Position numbers and translations under genes: made by a program | In this document: piece by piece, positions 4,236 through 32,528 of the stretch | Numbering within the stretch: the stretch's first letter is position 1 | Layout: each line of letters starts with the position of its first letter | Notes under the pieces: generated by a model | Seen by the model: only the letters and a program-made list of their open reading frames with translations | The model's database searches: none | What the model was told of the DNA's origin: nothing | Source of the DNA: Spirogloea muscicola | Lineage: Eukaryota; Streptophyta; Zygnematophyceae; Spirogloeales; Spirogloeaceae | NCBI GenBank assembly: GCA_009602725.1 | Contig: WELB01000041.1 | Coordinates: 744,576-777,103, forward strand | Reading direction: 5' to 3' | Length of the DNA stretch: 32,528 nucleotides

Positions 4236-4345
4236 TGCCCGTGCTGCATGCAGCTTCCCTGGCCCCCTTCTCGTACTTTGTTCATTCTTTTTGGGCTGGC
4301 TAGTTCCAGCCCCCCTCCTCAATGGGCGAGCCTTTTCTTCTGCTC
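4236..4345 (+). mobile_element. LINE 3' UTR module with TTC-type tail
   Basis: This stretch matches the 3' UTRs at about 7215-7315, 25945-26035 and 32425-32520. The order is CTTCCCTGGCCCCCTTCTCG, then TTCATTCTTTTTGGGCTGG, a loop, CCAGCCCC, CCTCAATGGGCGAGC and a TTTTCTTCT tail. No coding part of the element is attached, so it is an extreme 5' truncation or a solo 3' module. Confidence 0.7.
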
Positions 4346-5399: not shown

Positions 5400-6560
5400 C
5401 TCAGCGGCCCCTCCAGACCTTGTCCAATCGTTTGGGCTGGCCTCTCACAGACCAGTTAATTTGAGAGCGAGCGCTGTTCTTAGTAAAGCCGGCAGCTCTG
5501 GCCGCCTCCGAGTTTGGCTGCCACAGGTGCGCTCGCTCACGTGCCGCTGCTGCCGCCCCCAATCCCTGCTCGAGTCGCTTCTGAGCCTGCCCACTCGAGC
5601 CGCACCTCTTGCCTCTCCTTTCCAACATGTGAGGCCCTCCAAAATAGGGGAGACGGCTGTGCAAAGCCAGCCCAAAACGAATGGACAATGTCCAAAGCCA
5701 TAGAAAGAAGAAAGGGCTCGCCCATTGAGGATAGGGGCTGGAACAGCCAGCCGAAGGAGGAGGGCCCCAAGGCCCTCCTCTTAGCTGCTAAGCGCTTTTT
5801 GGCCCCTGCGTACCTTTGTCAATCCTTTTCGGGCTGGCTTTTCACAGCCCTTGCCCCCATTGGGACTGCCATTTTTTAAGGCGCACACGCTCGCACGGGT
5901 CAATCGCCCTGTATAGGTGGGCCGGCGGGAGGCGCTAAAGGGGGCGGCGGGCCCCACCACCATGGTCGTGGGCCTAAAGCGGCTCGCGAGTCGGGGCCCC
6001 AGGATTGAGGGAGCGAGGCGAACATGCGCAGGGCTGCCGTCGAGGAGGGGTCCTGCCAGCAGCGCCGGCGCGAAAGCACCTGGCGAGGCGCCACTACCTG
6101 GCGCACACGCGGCATGGCGGCCGAGCAGAGCCGCCTGGCCGTGGCGCGCCAAGCCAAGCTGCGCCGCACGGCGGCTCAATGGGCGAGCCCTTAAATGGGC
6201 GAGCCCTTTCTTTTCTTTTTGGCGGGCTGGGAGCTCCCAGCCCGCTATTAAAAGGCCCGCCATATGGGCCCGCCGCCAACCTGCCGAGCTGCCGGAGCGG
6301 AGCCATAATGGTGGAGCCCAAAATAGACAAACGAAAGCAGCAGATATTTCCAAGGCGGCGTGGGGGCTGGGAAAAGCAATCCCACAGAAGAAATAGAAAC
6401 AGCTATTCCGACGTGAGGAGATGGCTGTGAGAGGCCAGCCCAGAGATGAATGTAAGCTCATTCAAGGGCCTCGAGGGCTCTTTGCCCAGCTCGAAAAGAT
6501 TGACAAGCCCAGAGGAATGCACAAAGGTCTGAAAGGGGCCAGAAGGCACAAGGAGCAGAG
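5400..6560. repeat. Cluster of stem-loop modules in both orientations
   Basis: At least five copies of the stem-loop module occur here. Plus-sense copies start near 5412 (CCAGACCTTGTCC then TTGGGCTGGCC) and near 5810 (TTTGTCAATCC then CGGGCTGGC). Minus-sense copies lie near 5650-5735 and 6405-6450, and a further one near 6180-6246. The minus copy at 5650-5735 ends in AAAGAAGAAAGGGCTCGCCC, which is the TTC-rich tail read from the other strand. GC-rich non-repeat sequence at about 5890-6175 separates them and may be part of the promoter island of the downstream gene. Long open frames on both strands here lack homology and intron logic and look like products of high GC. Confidence 0.6.
6222..6245. 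repeat. 24-bp perfect palindrome (GC-rich cruciform/stem)
   Basis: The bases from 6222 to 6245 are a perfect 12+12 inverted repeat with no loop, centred on GAGCTC. It contains the GGGCTGG/CCAGCCC stem of the dispersed module, extended outward by GC on both sides. It follows a CCCTTTCTTTTCTTTTT tail, the usual start context of a stacked module. Confidence 0.8.
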
Positions 6561-7112: not shown

Positions 7113-7320
7113 GTTCGTCTCTCCGTAGCCTAGCATCTCTGATCTGCGGCTGCTTAGCAGGGGTTAACCTGAGTGATTCGTAGCCGCTTTGTTTTTAGTA
7201 TGCTAGTTTTCCTCAGCGCTTCCCCTGGCCCCCTTCTCGTACTCTGTTCATTCTTTTTTGGGCTGGCTTTTCCAGCCCCTATCCTCAATGGGCGAAGCGA
7301 GCACTTTCTTCTTATTCCTC
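7113..7320 (+). mobile_element. 5'-truncated LINE fragment with intact 3' UTR module
   Basis: The fragment begins shortly before a frame reading SISDLRLLSRG-stop at about 7132-7167. It continues through the 3' UTR (GTAGCCGCTTTG, CAGCGCTTCCCCTGGCCCCC) to the stem-loop at 7260-7278, then CCTCAATGGGCGA and the tail CACTTTCTTCTTATTCC. It lies inside the 5' region of the Cys-rich gene A, between the G-box-rich island and the start codon. It could therefore be transcribed as 5' UTR or alter the promoter. Confidence 0.75.
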
Positions 7321-7349
7321 CCCCCCCCTNCCCCCCCCCCCCCCCCCCA
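7321..7349. repeat. Poly-C tract with one N
   Basis: A run of C, broken by a single T and an N at 7330, directly follows the TTC tail of the preceding LINE fragment. Its true length is uncertain. Confidence 0.8.
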
Positions 7350-10660: not shown

Positions 10661-10872
10661 CTGGGCAGTCACGGCGACCTGGGGAGGGAGGAAGGAGGGA
10701 GGGAGGGACGGATGGACAGAGAAAGGGCGAGAAATGGACGGAGGAGAGGGGAAAGGGAGGAGAGAGGAAGACGAGGGAGGAGACAGAGAAAGAATCAGCT
10801 TCTTCTCCAAAGGGAGAGCACAGAAAGGGGTAACGAGGGAGTCGAGGGAGGGAGAGGGGGGGGGATGCTTTA
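10660..10872 (+). repeat. Homopurine tract
   Basis: The plus strand is nearly all A and G (GGGAGGAAGGAGGGAGGGAG and similar) for about 200 bases, immediately before the longest LINE open frame. It is simple-sequence DNA with triplex potential. It may be the degenerate 5' junction of that LINE copy, but this is not proven. Confidence 0.75.
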
Positions 10873-11905
10873 GCAAGTCCAGGGTGTGCGTCAATGTGAG
10901 TGTGGCGAGCGCGGGGCCGAGCCTGGAGAGCTGGCTGCTCATGTTCTGCGCTGTTCCCACGGCGGAGAGCGGACAGCGGCCCACGACCGCCTCCGCGACG
11001 CGATGCATGGCATCCTGTTGGAGGAGGGCTTCCCCGTGGCAGCGGAGCACTCCGGCATCATGCCGGTCCAGGAAAGGGCCGACGGTCTCCACGCCCGGCG
11101 TGTAGACCTGGTGGCCACCCCACAGGCCGGCGGGCCACGTCTTCTCCTGGACGTGCTCCTGGGTGACCACATGCTCAGGTGTGCCAAAGGCAGTGAGCGC
11201 ACGGGCTCCCACAACCTCCTACGTGACGCCATGTATGGCATCGTCAAGGAGGCGGGATATCAAGTGGCGTTGGAGAGCACTGGGGTGATGCCCATCCTCC
11301 TCCGCAATGGGGTCCCTCGGACGAGGCGTGTCGATCTGGTCGGCGTCCCCCTGGGAGGTGGCAAGCGGCTCCTCATGGACGTTGTCCTCACCGACAGCTT
11401 CCGGACGAAGGGCCCCATTACTTCTGAGACCGGCTACGCTGTGAAGGTAGCCGAACGGAAGAAGCTGCACAAGTACAAGGACCACCCGGCGGGTGATACC
11501 TTTTACCCCCTGGCCATGGACATCCATGGGTGTTACGGGGGTCGGTGGTCCTCGTTACTTTCGCTGCTGGCCTCTCAAGCTGACCAGCGGCGCCGGGAGC
11601 AGGGTGCTGCCCTTCCCGGTGGCTCGGTGCCTTTGGGTCTGGTGTCCTGCTACCGTATGCGACTGTCTATGTCCCTGCAGCGCTCCCAAGCGCTTGCTTT
11701 GCACCGCCGCGCTGGTCGCGCCCTTGCAGCAGCCTCTGGCTTGCGCAGCGGGGTTGCTCTTCCTCCCCTCAGCTCATCTGACTTCCTACTGCTGACACGG
11801 GGGTATTGAGGGCGCCCTGTCTGCCTAGCCTTTGGCTCCGTCATGAACACCTGTATGCATCTGGCTGGCATTTCACAGCCGATTCTTTCATATCAGCAGC
11901 CGCTT
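10873..11905 (+). mobile_element. LINE-like element 3' part with duplicated nuclease-like domain
   Basis: An uninterrupted frame (10886-11809, 307 aa) encodes the C-terminal part of a non-LTR retrotransposon ORF. It has a zinc-knuckle-like segment (CECG...HVLRCSH...H), then RRVDLV...LLLDVL, then a second copy of the same unit (HMLRCAK...RRVDLV...LLMDVVLTD). Next come AVKVAERKKLHKYKDH, PLAMDIHGCYG, YRMRLSMSLQRS and the end SSSDFLLLTRGY. The RxDLV...DVV...K...Y order resembles the restriction-like endonuclease of R2-type LINEs, so assignment to that class is by motif order only. No reverse transcriptase is present, so the copy is 5'-truncated. The 3' UTR (11810-11905) ends in a weak GGCTGGCATTTCACAGCC hairpin and CGCTTTCTTCTTTC. 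Confidence 0.7.
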
Positions 11906-12440
11906 TCTTCTTTCTTTGGACGTGGTGACCACTGATGCCTACGACCGCTCACACCCAGCTCAATGTGCCACCAAGGCTGGGTATGCGGTCGCCTGCGCTG
12001 CTCGGGCCAAAGAGCTGAAGTACGCAGACCATCCGCGGGAAGACGAGTTCTTCCCGTTGGCCATTGATACCCATGGGGCGCTGGGCGCTCGGTGGCTCGA
12101 GCTTCTCACCCAGCTCGCCCGCCACACCATCGCCCGTCGCTTCCATGGGGCGCCGGTCGACTTTCCTGCAGTCGGGTCACTGGCGCAAGTGTATCGAATG
12201 CGCCTGGCCGTCTCGCTGCAGAGGTCTATGGCCCGGGCGTTGCACCTTCGTGCCGGCAGAGCCCTCGCTGCTGCCTCTGGCTCTGGCCAGGGGACCCACT
12301 TCAACGAGCCTAGAATCTCCGACCTGCGGCTGCTTAGCAGAGGTTACTGAGTGATTCTCCTGTAGCTCTTTGGATTTTGTAAATTCTTTTTTGGCTGGCT
12401 TCTGCCAGCCCCTCTCTTCTATGGGCGAGCTTTTTCTTCT
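11906..12440 (+). mobile_element. Second LINE copy stacked head to tail on the first
   Basis: Homology begins exactly after the CTTTCTTCTTTC tail of the previous copy, with a frame starting LDVVTTDAYDRS. It continues through KAGYAVACAARAKELKYAD, FFPLAIDTHGALGARW and YRMRLAVSLQRSMARALHLR to RISDLRLLSRGY-stop at 12350. The 3' UTR carries GGCTGGC at 12393-12399 pairing with GCCAGCC at 12404-12410, then TATGGGCGAGC and a TTTTTCTTCTTTT tail. The zinc-knuckle half is absent, so the copy is truncated within the nuclease-like domain. Confidence 0.75.
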
Positions 12441-12960
12441 TTTAGCAAGAGGTCAGTAGCTGGATGGCCAATCCAAGGGGGGAAAGCGGTGTTCTCCTTC
12501 GGGGTGCATAAATGGAAGGCCAGTCCAAAAGAATCAGGAATGCGCTCCCAGTGAGCGGCAGTGGCTGTGAAGGACCAGCCCAACTACAACATGGCAGGGA
12601 TGGAGGATGGAGCGCCTTCAGAGGTCCCAGCCTGTAACGGGACTTGCACATCGGCCGCAGCTGCTGCTACATCAAAATTATGCAGGGGCTCTTCCCTGCT
12701 GCACTTCAAACATTCGGCTATCAAGAGCCGACATGTTCATTTGTTGGGTGTGTGACACTCTTGATTCAATGAAGAGAAGCAGCACGTCCACAGGGGGGCG
12801 AGGGCTGTGAAATAATATCCCACTAAACGATGAACAAGGTCCACAAACAAACGAAGGCGATGGCTGTAAGAGGCCAGCCCAGAAAATATGAACAACTTCC
12901 GAAAGCCGCGGAAGGTGCGATAACATGGAAAAGCTCTCCATGGCTTCAGCAAATGGTCGC
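12441..12960 (-). repeat. Array of minus-sense stem-loop modules
   Basis: Minus-sense modules recur at about 12510-12590 (GGCTGTGAAGGACCAGCCC), 12795-12845 (GCGAGGGCTGTGAAATAATA) and 12855-12905 (GATGGCTGTAAGAGGCCAGC). Between them are variants of the AACAAGGTCC / ATGAACAA segment that precedes the hairpin. No coding sequence is recognised. The modules fit decayed LINE 3' ends stacked in one orientation. Confidence 0.55.
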
Positions 12961-17224: not shown

Positions 17225-17375
17225 CTTCCAAACTGTTGTTAGTTCTTTTTGAGCTAGCTTTACAAACTTTTTCTTGAGCGGGTCAATCTGCTGTAGGTTA
17301 TGTAGATTTTTAGATGTGCTTGCCTTTGTACCTGGCCATTTGGCCTACATTTCTTTCTAATACACGATCTTTTCT
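17225..17375 (+). mobile_element. Isolated LINE 3' UTR fragment
   Basis: Bases 17274-17366 match 25503-25595 over 93 bases, with six differences that I counted. At 25503 this sequence is the 3' UTR right after a LINE terminus, but here no coding part is attached. A worn hairpin module precedes it at about 17240-17272 (GTTCTTTTTGAGCTAGCTTT, tail ACTTTTTCTT). This repeats the stacking of a truncated copy on an earlier tail. Confidence 0.75.
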
Positions 17376-18303
17376 TTACAAACCCCACCTTAGCACTTTC
17401 TTCTTTTCAAAACACGTGAACAAATACTAGCTTATTATTCAATACTTCAGTTTCAACCATCATAACATCTATTTGCACATTGTTGACATTGTCTTTCATC
17501 TAAAGTGTATCTGTCCGTGATTGATAAGAGTTGCATAGAATATTACACTGACCAACCGTTTCTAAGAAAATAGAAAATGTAGTACCAAAGAAAATTTTAT
17601 TACAGTAAATGTATTTGCAATGCACCAGTCTGCTGTAATGGCCTAATATATAGAAAAGATACACTCCATAGCGAAACCATGTCAGTCCGAAACAATTCCT
17701 TCTGCTGTTTGTGAAGCATAACTTCCAACGTTCGTAACCCCTGGCGCATGTCAGGACGTCTAGCAGCTTAGATCCAGTCAGATCTCAGACTGATGCCTAT
17801 GCAGTGGCAGTACTGATGATCTTCGCACCCTAGCGCCAACCCTACTAAATGGATGAGATGACAAGGTCTGGTGGAGCCTGGTAATGGGTAGCAAGTGGTG
17901 GGATGTTGTTGCTTATGGAAGTCCTCTCAAGCAAACTGCAAACCGTACAACAAGCAGAATGCCACAGGTGACCACTGAGTGAGCTGTTGCATTCCTGCTC
18001 GCTTCCTGCTTGGCAACTATCCGCCGCTGTGCTTCCCTCAGCAAGCTGGAATGTTGGCAGCACAATGTGTGCCACAACAAGAATGATGAATTACTGGCTA
18101 GTCTGGAAATTGAATGTGCTGCCTGTTTGAGCTGAGCAGAGTACAGAAGTCCTTGAACATATGCACAGATCCTCAGGTCCACTTTTGCTTAATTACTTCT
18201 CGAGTAAGGCCTTTGGGCAGTGAGTGCAGCTTAAGTACGAAGAGGTATGTGTAACTACGTCAAGCAAACCGACCCTGCTACCTTGCTAGGAGAAATTTGC
18301 CAC
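17376..18303. other. AT-rich intergenic region between convergent genes
   Basis: This lies between the 3' ends of gene B (+) and the beta-glucosidase (-). It is AT-richer than the rest of the window to about 17700. No gene, RNA or repeat module was recognised. It should contain the 3' UTR of the glycosidase. Confidence 0.5.
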
Positions 18304-24855: not shown

Positions 24856-25600
24856 AGCCACTTCACCACTCACATGCTGAGATGCCCCACTGGACCAGAA
24901 GTGGTGGGCATTCACAACCTCCTTCGCGATGCCCTGGCGAGCTTGATGCGCGACGCCGGCTACCGTGCGGTCGTGGAAGTCAACAATACCATGCCTATCA
25001 CCACGGACGCCCAGGGACGTCATCATCGCCGAACACTTGACATTGTGGGCGTGCAACCTGGTGGAGGACCACGGGCCCTGGTCGACGTTGTTGTTACGTA
25101 TGCATAGAAAGGCCCAGCATCGACACACATCGCTGGGCATGCAGTGGGCGGTGCAGAATAAAGAAAACTGCGGCACTACTCCGATTACCCCCAATGCTGT
25201 CAGATCCTGCCAGCGGCAATCGACATCTTTGGCTGTCCGGGTCCTCGTGTCCACCTTCTCCTTCAAAGCATTGCCAATCTAGGCTACACTCGACGTGCAG
25301 ATGTGTTTCCGGCTGAGATGGGCTTGCCAGCTGCATATCTGTCGCTCTTGCAACGACGAGTCTCGGCCTGTTTGCAGCGTGCTCGGGCTAGTGCCTTGCA
25401 CCAGAAAGCTGGGCGAGCTCTACTTGGTGGCAGAAGGGCTCCGTTTCTGGCATTTAGTATTCATGCATCAATAAGTGACCTTTATATTTTGACCCGTGGT
25501 TGTTGAGCGGGTCAATCTGCTGTAGGTTATGTATATCTGTAGATGTGCTTGCCTTTGTACTTGGCCATTTGGCCTACATTAGTTTCTAATACACGGAATT
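24856..25600 (+). mobile_element. LINE copy with zinc-knuckle to 3' UTR, degraded
   Basis: The frame begins SHFTTHMLRCP, then IHNLLRDALASLMRDAGYR, RRTLDIVGVQPGGGPRALVD and VVVT, matching the duplicated unit in the 10886 copy. Homology continues through 25110-25300 in changing frames (LRHYSDYP, AIDIFG). It ends with RRVSACLQRARASALHQKAG and SISDLYILTRGC, stop at 25504. The 3' UTR 25503-25595 is the one shared with 17274-17366. No reverse transcriptase is present. The subfamily differs from the 11906 copy, since SACLQRARA replaces SLQRSMARA, and the minus-strand copy at 31100-31310 belongs with this one. Confidence 0.75.
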
Positions 25601-26375
25601 CCACTTCTCACCTTCCCAGCCCCTACCCTCTGTGGGCGAGCAATTTCATTTCTCGCGATCTTGTCCATTTGATACGGGCTGGCCTTTTCATCGCCCCCCT
25701 TGGGTGAGCTTTCTATTCACAGCCTCCACCTTTTATTGCGCGCAGGCCGAGCTTTGGCGGCGGCCTCCGGTCTCCGTCAGGGCGACATCTTTCCGCCGGC
25801 TAGCTACTCAGACTTGCATCTCCTGACTAGAGGTTACTGAGCGTTCCTGACTAGAGGTTACTCAGCCCAGCATCTCTGATTTGCGGCTGCTCAGCAGGGG
25901 TTACCGAGTGTCTCGTAGCAGCTTTGTTTCTGTTACTTAGCGCTTCCCCTGGCCCCCTTCTCGTACTCTGTTCATTCTTTTTCGGGCTGGTTGTTCCAGC
26001 CCCTATTCTCAATGGGCGAGCACTTTCTTCCCTGGCTGATGTCTTAGTCCTAGTCCTTCGCACTCCGGCTCCTTCAGACCTTGTCCATTCCTTTGGGCTG
26101 GCCTTTCCCACTCCGCGCTTCCTCACTCTTTCCCAGCCACCGGTCAATCTGGCCGCGCTTTCTTCTTTTCCCATCGCTGCTCCGCCTCTTCGGACCTTAT
26201 CAAATATTTTCGGGCTGGCTTCCTCCATTGTTCATACCATTTTCTGGGCTGGCCTCTCCCAGCCACCGCCCTCTTCTGGAAGCGTCTTTCTTCTCTTTTT
26301 CCACAGCCCTCGCCCCCTCTGGCAGAGCCACCTTCCTGACAGAAGAAAGTGCTCGCCCATTGAGGATAGGGGATA
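25601..26375 (+). repeat. Head-to-tail array of LINE ends and stem-loop modules
   Basis: Several very short element ends are stacked. They are YSDLHLLTRGY-stop at about 25802-25840; a partial duplicate (CTGACTAGAGGTTACT twice) at 25825-25862; and SISDLRLLSRGY-like sequence at about 25867-25905 with a full 3' UTR and the hairpin GGGCTGG 25984-25990 / CCAGCCC 25996-26002, tail CACTTTCTTCCC. Further hairpin modules lie near 26085-26170 (tail GCGCTTTCTTCTTTTCCC), 26195-26228 and 26248-26300 (tail GCGTCTTTCTTCTC). A minus-sense module (AGAAAGTGCTCGCCCATTG) closes the array at about 26343-26370. Spacing is roughly 50-120 bases, giving a minisatellite-like look. Confidence 0.7.
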
Positions 26376-27400: not shown

Positions 27401-29693
27401 ATGGACCCCAGGGCTCCTGCGGGTGCTCTGACAGCAGTTCCAGCACCGGCAGGGCCGCTGCCGCCCGCCTGCAAGGCGGCCGAGGGTTGGCCGCTTCGTG
27501 AACGGGACCCTTGGCGCGCCGCACATAAGTCAGGGACGGCGCTGGCGCCAGCACCGCTGGCGTTGCAACTGCTACTGGCGGCCACCGTGCTCGTGTCCTG
27601 CGCATCCTTGATTCTAGTTGGACCGGATGTCGTCCTCCGGAACGCCAACCACCTGGGGCGGAGTTACTGCAGGCTCCATGCGCGCGATCGGCCTGGCGCC
27701 GACGGTGCAACTGCCTATGACTCGGCGACCGAGCTGCCCAGACTCCGTATTGCCATTGTGAGCTGTGCGGATGACTCACAGGGCGCCCGCTCCAAGCAAA
27801 ATTTCGACGGTCTGATGCAGCTCACCGGTGCCACCAAGGAGTCGTACGCCAAGCGTCATGGTTACACGTTCATTGACGCCAGTGACGTCATTGACCACAG
27901 GTACGATTCCTGCTCCACTTCCTCCCCTCCAATTTGCACAGACTGGATCAGGTTGACACATGGTCGAGCAAAACGATGCGTGTTGGGGGAATTGAAATTG
28001 GTAACCAAGTGAAGAAAACCTCAGTCACACTCTTGCATGTGGTCAGATTCACAGGTGGAAGTCATTGACAGGAGCCCAAGACGCCTAGATTCACAATTAA
28101 GTCAATATTTAGTGTCAGTTGAAGTCGGTCTCATATACTTAGCCAGGCTTGTGTGGTGGCTTCCTGTGGTTGTGGCTATTGGGGTTGCATAAGAGGGTGC
28201 AGATGCTATCAGCGAGGTGGACATTTGGGTGGTCAGAATTTAATGATCGCGCTGGTTGCGCTTTGCAGTCGGCCAGCGAGCTGGAGTAAGATAAAGGCTG
28301 TATTGGCGCACCTCCGCGAATACGATATTGTCTTTTGGACGGACGCTGATTCCCTGGTTGCAAACCACGACGTGTCGCTACAGGAAGTCCTCCTCTTTGC
28401 AACAGGGGGGCGAAATTTGGACAATCTTCCTGATCTCATTCTTACAGGTCAGCATCCCCAGTTTCAAGCTCGGAAGTATATGTACCTCATCAATTAGCAG
28501 ACAGCGTCCTTGTAAGCCTTTGCCCTGTAGTGGTGTGCAGATTAGGGCAGCCGAGTACTTGTAGGCAATTTATGTAGAGACTCAGCATCTCACTCCTGAA
28601 GCTTTGTCAGCACCAAAACACTGCTCTAGGATCTAGCCTGTGTCATACTGTGTATTAGCTCTCTCAATGTAAGACTGTGCTGGTCAGGGGGCTCAAGTCG
28701 GAAGAGAGAAGAAGTCCGGTCTACAGCTCCAAGATTAAGTGCTGCAAGCCACGTGTTATTCACTTTCCACCAGGACCTTGAGTTCATGATACTGCTCTTA
28801 GAGCGTGGCAGGACTGCACAGACCAGTTGAGATTTGTGTGGCAGCAAGCAGCCCACACAGTCTCTGTACACTAGGGACAATGCGGACTGGCCGTTGGGCA
28901 TTGACCTGCAAGAAGATGCTTCACCTGACACTTTCGTACCCCTGAATTTTGCTGCAGCGGACATGTCAGGCGTGAATGCCGGGATGTTCTTCCTCCGGAA
29001 TACAACATGGAGCCACGAGTTCTTGGAACACTGGTGGAACCAGACGAGCTATGTGCTACCGTTTGGGCTGTCCAAGAGTGGTGATAATGACGCGCTCAAG
29101 AGCCTCATAAGCGACATGCCACCCGAAGACCTGCGGCAGCACGTTGCCATCTCTCCAGCACAGGTCAGCTAATGCTTGCCATGGTAGCTAGTCTTACTGT
29201 CACGTATAGTATCACTGTCCCGCTAGGTGTGCAGGCCATGAGCAGGCCACTTTTAAAAGCCCGTCAATCTTTATGGATGTACCCATCAGCTAGACAGACG
29301 GTTATCAAGTGGAAATCTTTTTGCAACCTTGTTAAGATTGTGCTATAGGAACTGTAGAGTCTGTGTGAGGCTCCACGGATGTCAGGTGGCCGTCACTTCA
29401 GGAGAGCGAGTTTGGACAGTGACACTGATATTGCAATCCGATCATAACCATACAGTGAAGCTTTCCCCATGCAGTGCGCTTTCAATTCATACCCATGGGT
29501 CGTGAATATGAAAAACTACGTCCGGCTGATGCGATGGTCGCACTTCCTTTGGCGTGGCGCCTACTCGCGCGGTGACTTCATGATCCATCTCGCAGGCCTC
29601 AATGACAAGCGCAAGTATGCGCTGGGGGTGCTGCAAGGGCTGCGGCAGCATCACTTGTACCCGCCAATGTCCTATGCACGGAAGCTCTTGTAG
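27401..29693 (+). CDS. GT34-like (GMA12/MNN10 family) Golgi glycosyltransferase, 4 exons
   Basis: Predicted type II membrane glycosyltransferase of the galactosyl/xylosyl/mannosyl transferase family GT34. Exons: 27401-27900, 28269-28447, 28958-29163, 29475-29693 (phases 2, 1, 0), giving 367 aa. A Pro/Ala-rich cytosolic tail precedes one hydrophobic anchor (about residues 51-73). The lumenal domain follows: LRIAIVSCADDSQ, ESYAKRHGYTF, PASWSKIKAVLAHLREYDIV, FWTDADS with the metal/sugar-nucleotide DxD motif (about D192-D194), MSGVNAGMFFLRNTTWS, DNDALKSLI and the late FMIHLAGLNDKRKYALG. ATG at 27401 is chosen as the first in-frame Met before the anchor. Activity in xyloglucan or another wall glycan is plausible, but the acceptor cannot be deduced. 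The short link between LILT and NAGMFF is closer to fungal-type members than to land-plant xyloglucan xylosyltransferases. Confidence 0.87.
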
Positions 29694-31639: not shown

Positions 31640-32190
31640 AGTGGCCGTTCGGGCCAGTGAGATGGAGTGTGTATTAAGAGAAACAGCGCTTCCAAATTGA
31701 CTGGTGGCTGTGAGAGGCCAACCCAAACGAATCCCTGGAATACACGGTCTTCCCTGGACAAGGTCTGGAGGGGCCGGGTGGCGTAAAAAGCAAGATACTA
31801 ATCTCGAAGCCGGCAGCAAAGCACGAAGTCCGGCAGCAAGGGAGCTCTCAGTAACCGCGAGTTAGTAAGTGCAAGTCAGAGTGACTTGCAAGCGAAATGT
31901 TTTGTCTTTTTTCCCAGGCGGATGGAGGGCCTGAGTGGCTATGAAGAAGAATGAGCTCGCCCATTGAAAAGAGTGGCTAAGCTCCCAGCCACCGCCCTCT
32001 TCTGGAAGTGTCATTCCGACACACTGCTGAGTATAAAGGCAAGCATATCGACAGACGTACATCACCTGCTAAGAGTCCGTCTGTCTCGCTCAGTAAGCGC
32101 GAGTCAGCACGTAGAGGTCGCTAACTGATGCCCGAACCCCAGACGGCAATCGACAAGAGAAAGTGCTCGCCCATTGAGGATAGGGGCTGG
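31640..32190 (-). repeat. Minus-sense LINE ends and stem-loop modules
   Basis: A hairpin-type module at about 31680-31770 (CTGGTGGCTGTGAGAGGCC, then GGACAAGGTCTGGAGGGGCC) matches the plus-sense one at 5400-5460. LINE termini on the minus strand read SDLHLLTRGY-stop near 31852-31885 and SDLYVLTRAY-stop near 32088-32125. A complete minus-sense module at about 32155-32215 has GGGCTGG at 32184-32190 pairing with CCAGCCC at 32196-32202, and the tail GAGAAAGTGCTCGCCCATTG. One plus-sense tail variant (CAGCCACCGCCCTCTTCTGG) lies at about 31995-32015. Confidence 0.6.
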
Positions 32191-32214
32191 AAAGGCCAGC
32201 CCAAAAAGGATCGA

Positions 32215-32528
32215 CAAGCCCTCTTTTGTCTTTGGGTCTTGTGTCCTGCTACCGTATGCGTGTATCTATGTGCCCACAGCGGGTCCCAGGCGATTGCTTT
32301 GCATCGCCGGGCTGGTCGCCTCTGGTTTGCGCAGCGGGGTTGCTCTTTCCCCCCCCCCCAGCATCTCTGATCTGCGGCTGCTTAGCAGGGGTTACTGAGT
32401 GTCTCGTAGCAGCTTTGTTTCTGTTACTTAGCGCTTCCCCTGGCCCCCTTCTCCCCCACCACCCCTTCTTTTTCGGGCTGGTTGTTCCAGCCCCTATTCT
32501 CAATGGGCGAGCACTTTCTTCTTTCTTC
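32215..32528 (+). mobile_element. 5'-truncated LINE copy running to the window end
   Basis: Sequence from about 32225 closely matches 11632-11809 (TTGGGTCTTGTGTCCTGCTA, ACCGTATGCG), in a disturbed frame. It ends SISDLRLLSRGY-stop at 32398. The 3' UTR carries GCGCTTCCCCTGGCCCCCTT, the hairpin GGGCTGG 32475-32481 / CCAGCCC 32487-32493, TCTCAATGGGCGAGC and the tail CACTTTCTTCTTTCTTC, which runs off the window. It is the clearest example of the TTC-repeat tail. Confidence 0.8.

Follow-up and report, generated by a model that had tools for sequence, protein, structure and literature searches.

A pyrimidine-tailed, R2-like LINE family of Spirogloea muscicola that probably inserts one-way at CT-rich sites, including those in its own relatives

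An older element split by a young relative

We examined a composite locus of long interspersed nuclear elements (LINEs) in the streptophyte alga Spirogloea muscicola, within a stretch of 32,528 nucleotides of contig 41 (WELB01000041.1, positions 744,576 to 777,103), hereafter the window. The locus is an older element that was split by the young nested insertion of a relative. We consider it probable that this is the work of a family of R2-like LINEs, ending in a hairpin and a CTTTCTTC tail, which nests one-way at CT-rich sites, those within relatives included. An earlier reading of the window, made from the letters alone (the sequence-only reading), had described two copies head to tail, with copy 2 as a separate copy starting at the tail of copy 1; copy 2 proved to be the second half of the split host.

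The insert, copy 1, is almost identical to a full-length relative, L069 (L-numbers are loci fetched from the 153 Mb genome for comparison; coordinates of all features are in Table 1), and the host lies in two pieces on either side of it. When the flanks were spliced (10860-11155 joined to 11925-12445), they gave a single gap-free alignment with L008 (97.3%, 791 nt) and with L047 (97.6%, 785 nt), and aligned gap-free with L070 and L028 at 94.1% over 707 nt, the range being 93.6-94.1% with L058 included. A BLAST comparison of the locus with the fetched copies likewise placed 10878-11155 and 11909-12437 side by side in L008, and did the same in L028 up to 12353. The target-site duplications (TSDs) are nested in the same manner, with TGGACGTG on both sides of copy 1 and TTTAGCAAG on both sides of the composite. 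By simulation, the nine bases that precede a window position picked at random are found again after the host tail with a frequency of about 0.001. Because of the inner and outer TSDs and the gap-free joined flanks, copy 2 is the other half of the host rather than a newcomer that landed on a TTC tail, and these observations together with the near-identical insert rule out an independent insertion of copy 2.

Genome searches with the two proteins gave many relatives. With the copy 2 protein, at least 150 places were scored among 19,147 first-look candidates, including a block of copies in the genome that all scored the same, at 95% protein identity. Matches to the copy 1 open reading frame (ORF) numbered 134, and the next-best after the window's own copy begin at residue 94, which suggests that residues 1-93 do not belong to copy 1. 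Some matches to the copy 2 protein sit in open frames that exceed 1,300 aa, and some copies lie in very long ones (C13:53695, 13,193 aa; C15:220883, 5,873 aa; C365:40338, 4,416 aa).

Encoded protein and element class

Judged by their proteins, the elements are R2-like LINEs. Two full open frames match RVT_1 (E 8.5e-16 and 3.9e-17), which identifies a LINE-type reverse transcriptase, and for both ORFs the best solved relative by sequence is the R2 protein 9nl3 (E 7.9e-7 and 1.7e-6). In the C-terminal part, C58, C60, C77, H87, D128 and D143 are invariant in five sequences from three families; we take these residues to be the CCHC and PD-(D/E)XK endonuclease motifs. A search of the PDB with a model of this part returned R2 for all of the top six chains, the model itself being of low confidence (predicted local distance difference test, pLDDT, 48.4), and the Pfam search gave no C-terminal match to a CCHC or PD-(D/E)XK endonuclease domain. 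In our judgement the elements likely carry a C-terminal CCHC motif and a PD-(D/E)XK endonuclease. At the N-terminus, weak Pfam matches to a C2H2 zinc finger, below the cut-off, lie at 322-342 in L070, with none in L069. No Exo_endo_phos match, as for an apurinic/apyrimidinic (AP) endonuclease, was found in either full open frame at E ≤ 1.

Conserved 3′ ends without poly(A)

In copy 1, the ORF stop (11807-11809) is followed by the 3′ untranslated region (UTR), a hairpin and a pyrimidine tail, and then directly by element coding sequence. The same order recurs at other ends, namely LINE coding end, 3′ UTR, stem-loop, about 20 bases and a CTTTCTTC tail, so that the earlier description of a LINE with a conserved stem-loop and a TTC-type tail holds. 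Among 115 hairpin-bearing 3′ ends (GGGCTGG..CCAGCC..GGGCGAG) from the fetched loci and the window, 110 have at least eight pyrimidines in the ten bases 3-12 past the motif. None of the 115 has AAAAA within 25 nt, in agreement with the absence of poly(A) noted in the sequence-only reading. Moreover, the genome contains 6,230 matches to the hairpin-plus-GGGCGAGC pattern and none to its reversed control.

The whole 3′ UTR of copy 1 folds no more stably than its shuffles (z +0.53). Covariation of the stem, for which a check had been proposed, found no support in a script tally of 294 hairpins: the core pairs are nearly invariant, and the changes comprise 354 that break a pair, 68 one-sided ones that keep it and 30 two-sided ones that keep it. 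The stem is conserved by sequence. As to the GGGCGAGC motif, GGGCGAG is found here about 10-15 nt past the stem on its 3′ side. In plant L1 LINEs a conserved CGAG immediately 3′ of the stem has been described (PMC3747384), and the likeness may be coincidence.

Target sites and orientation

Of 127 distinct 3′ ends, a 5′ end could be called for 113; of these, 96 were free of a further 3′ end within them, and TSDs were sought in 95. The longest exact match was 7-11 nt in 25 insertions, 6 nt in 9, 5 nt in 7 and 4 nt in 17; matches of at least 7 nt (25/95) compare with about 2.3% in swapped pairs. Such TSDs start with CT in 16 of 25 cases, against 9.6% for simulated insertions at random sites treated by the same algorithm (p = 5e-11). 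The proportion is 15/24 without the window host half, whose match is no true TSD, and 14/22 if all-pyrimidine matches are removed as well (p = 9e-10). Counts from the TSD start (n = 25; C 18, T 18, Y 18, T 15) give a consensus CTYT, which resembles the element's own tail. At UTR junctions, 31 of 65 hand-picked cases start with CT, compared with 26% expected from this CT-rich segment (p = 1e-4). An automatic search for empty sites yielded 28 candidate pairs, several of which were self-matches from overlapping loci or chained copies, and only those confirmed by eye were used. On the minus strand of L007, upstream of a 3′ end at 1631, a copy apparently begins directly after telomere-type (CCCTAAA)n repeats.

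Older copies are frequent targets, as the sequence-only reading had supposed, and insertions into relatives are mostly in the same orientation. Genome-wide, the UTR motif TGTTCATTC comes 5-35 nt after GGGCGAGC in the same orientation in 135 cases (reversed control 1), while inverted arrangements number 17 with the complement of TGTTCATTC, a neighbouring segment, and 15 with the complement of the other-side motif of the same segment (reversed controls 0). At the ORF site CACTTCC|AGGAGCC, 24 insertions are same-oriented and 2 inverted, with controls of 0. In the sequences read, CT stands on the sense strand at these target places and hardly at all on the other strand; thus strand-specific targeting of CT predicts the one-way bias without any attraction by tails. 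Tails spaced 60-90 nt apart are found 405 times in the same orientation (control 12) and at 152 sites in convergent orientation (reversed control 4 per strand), where an unbiased process would give 2:1; this comparison, which covers same-oriented and convergent pairs, is weak evidence by itself. At the 152 places two GGGCGAGC motifs face each other, for example at C56:636213 and C12:1237220.

Several points weigh against this reading of an R2-like family nesting one-way at CT-rich sites. No TSD of at least 4 nt was found in 37 of the 95 insertions, and a further 17 have 4 nt only. The inner TSD, TGGACGTG, does not itself start with CT, though its target has CT at the boundary. The target copies probed by the same-oriented and by the inverted patterns are not exactly equal in number, and at least one duplicated genomic place is among the 135 same-oriented matches. 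The low confidence of the endonuclease model makes the fold search weak evidence for the class. Finally, some tandem junctions lack a left half of the host, and hence nesting alone cannot explain all stacks.

Nested and tandem stacks

We read 20 stacked loci by eye, in listing order of the same-orientation matches (contigs 2-16; contig 1 and one duplicate place were skipped). In eight, the left half of the host is present and the insertion is nested (L088, L089, L090, L091, L095, L096, L097, L099), L097 being recognized, by CTTCTTGT on both sides, once all fetched sequence had been read. An automatic 16-nt test found a left half stopping at the junction in four of the 20 (L089, L090, L096, L099), and also in L025. 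Apparent true tandems are L082, L083 and L098, and the other nine loci are unclear by eye. In a second set of close-pair loci (nine fetched, of which all but L079 were read by eye), L072 and L077 are nested, L071, L073, L074 and L075 array-like, and L076 and L078 mixed chains. Many apparent stacks are therefore nested or tiny insertions, and a few true tandems exist.

The sequence-only reading proposed that new copies prime on older TTC tails, so that arrays grow tail to tail. The likeness of the CTYT target to the tail agrees with priming at pyrimidine-rich places, and in L082, the only locus with an inner duplication (TTTCCTGGAGC on both sides, by eye), a later copy appears to have re-used the site at the older tail. 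Growth of arrays by this route is nevertheless unlikely in our judgement. In the window the new copy went into an ORF and not onto a tail; eight of the 20 stacks are nested; and 5′ ends lie at a tail-like motif in 5 of 96 insertions, which is no clear excess over 1.5% of random positions in the same loci, in a set biased against arrays because it excludes 17 of the 113 calls that run through another copy's 3′ end. By eye, two of these five are nested halves and one is coding sequence, leaving two. Our estimate was lowered further when L097 turned out to be nested and when a supposed duplication in L083 was dropped, having proved to be element sequence.

Somewhat less credible still is template jumping, by which an R2-like reverse transcriptase passes between RNAs and makes head-to-tail concatemers in a single insertion; Bibillo and Eickbush reportedly described such end-to-end jumping by the R2 enzyme. 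It would suit the array-like junctions without a visible left half in L073, L074, L075 and L083 (by eye), whereas the inner duplication of L082 is unexpected from a single jump, and it is inapplicable to the window, where both halves belong to one element. Tandem duplication of 3′ ends by unequal recombination or slippage is very improbable, since junctions of the other loci read carry an element tail and stacked units often mix families, although L098 looks like such a case: there, by eye, a 3′ end is directly repeated, with a junction at GCG and no tail on the upstream unit.

Micro-copies and a tentative mechanism

Some insertions (L089, L090, L094, L095, L096) consist, by eye, of only about 11-40 nt of the 3′ end; several are flanked by short duplications, and most lie within an otherwise normal 3′ UTR. 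Among 168 3′ ends, 31 keep at most 17 nt upstream of GGGCGAG, a few of them being coding sequence or chance GGGCGAGC matches, and 13 stop 8-11 nt upstream, beside the hairpin base; these stops may, tentatively, mark arrest of the reverse transcriptase. The numbers are small and the loci partly chosen for stacking, and a peak at 20-23 nt in the length profile is likely an artefact of differences in loop length. TSDs of the micro-copies are unconvincing overall (at least 5 nt in 15/31, against 30% of 94 random pairs), and the better cases are those with a known uninterrupted UTR (L089, L090, L095, L096).

It is possible, though we hold this only tentatively, that the RNA 3′ end picks both site and direction. 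Pairing of CUUUCUUC with a nicked ARAG-3′ end would make the element's own pyrimidine-rich 3′ ends recurrent one-way targets. Frequent halting of the reverse transcriptase at the 3′ hairpin would then seed micro-copies of about 11-45 nt, which are flanked by duplications in the best cases, and could spread short CT-rich motifs.

Relation to known elements

R2-type LINEs are mostly known for their specificity to rDNA, and new gene-insertion tools are built on them. The present elements share with them the reverse transcriptase and, after it, conserved Cys/His positions and probably a PD-(D/E)XK-like C-terminus; a weak N-terminal C2H2-like finger may be a further likeness. R2 proper occupies one site in the ribosomal DNA (rDNA), whereas here strict insertion into 28S rDNA was not found, the 3′ ends being dispersed at thousands of sites with varied targets and a short CTYT preference. 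The label R2-like denotes sequence and fold matches, not a placement by tree within the group with restriction-like endonucleases (RLE).

Nesting into existing copies is described for Zepp and ZeppL of green algae, where it leads to tandem arrays in which 3′ ends predominate (PMC8226300). Zepp, of the L1 type, is reported at telomeres or centromeres (PMC10088271, PMC8226300) and is listed among the (A)n-tailed families (PMC3747384). Insertion into existing copies also occurs here, at the window locus and in the genome-wide pattern counts, but the present elements are R2-like and pyrimidine-tailed, lie on many contigs and have no AP endonuclease match. By analogy, their mode would be much like that of Zepp, in another LINE class.

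Dualen has an AP endonuclease plus an RLE, and an AP endonuclease was not matched in the elements here. RandI and Dualen of Chlamydomonas end, as do our elements, in repeats other than poly(A), such as (ATT)n or (CTATTT)n, and SINEX-2 ends in (CTTT)n (PMC3747384). BLAG of Blattella germanica is described as R2-related, non-site-specific and scattered in its genome (PMC7650587), and is thus similar by description, not by sequence comparison; a pyrimidine tail or self-nesting was not found in the part of that description consulted. Algal LINEs with microsatellite-like tails (PMC3747384) and RLE LINEs with microsatellite targets (PMC4640811) have also been described. The kind is hence already known, and the interest lies in the combination of an R2-like protein, a CTYT target, a pyrimidine tail and one-way self-nesting. 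In a high-copy R2 relative with a short, tail-like target and one-way self-nesting, thousands of natural insertions would make it possible to measure how RNA tail, primer pairing and target choice are linked. The locus also cautions that a head-to-tail stack of LINEs can be the product of nesting.

Other features of the window

Table 1. Coordinates of the composite locus and of related 3′ ends in the window
Feature	Position	Strand	Evidence
Outer TSD, left copy TTTAGCAAG (target CTTT...)	10869..10877	+	identical 9-mer at 12441-12449
Host element, first piece	10878..11155	+	contiguous with second half in L008, L047, L070, L028
Inner TSD, left copy TGGACGTG	11148..11155	+	repeated at 11917-11924
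Young insertion, copy 1	11156..11916	+	99.87% identity to L069 over 759 nt
Copy 1 hairpin, GGCTG 11863-11867 / CAGCC 11876-11880	11863..11880	+	minimum-free-energy fold
Copy 1 pyrimidine tail	11903..11916	+	read in sequence
Inner TSD, right copy TGGACGTG	11917..11924	+	match to left copy
Host element, second piece (copy 2)	11917..12440	+	contiguity with first piece in uninterrupted copies
Host 3′ stem-loop, GGCTGGC 12393-12399 / GCCAGCC 12404-12410	12393..12410	+	fold z = -1.72 vs shuffles
Host pyrimidine tail CTTTTTCTTCT	12430..12440	+	read in sequence
Outer TSD, right copy TTTAGCAAG	12441..12449	+	match to left copy
Short 3′ end, 5′-truncated, likewise with hairpin, GGGCGAGC and pyrimidine tail	4252..4345	+	
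Short 3′ end, inverted	5702..5752	-	
Related copy, 3′ end	7127..7324	+	
Related copy, 3′ end, inserted in 3′ region of another family	25864..26030	+	
Short 3′ end, inverted	32158..32210	-	
Related copy, 3′ end at window edge	32357..32528	+	

Part of the second of two host genes (about 1850-2430 and 27700-28500) had no Pfam match; one of the genes presumably resembles an acireductone dioxygenase and one a glycosyltransferase. Positions 24863-25609 and 17271-17376 belong to a third family of related LINEs, seen also in L017, with a different 3′ UTR that has a GGCCATTTGGCC inverted repeat and ends near AATACACG.
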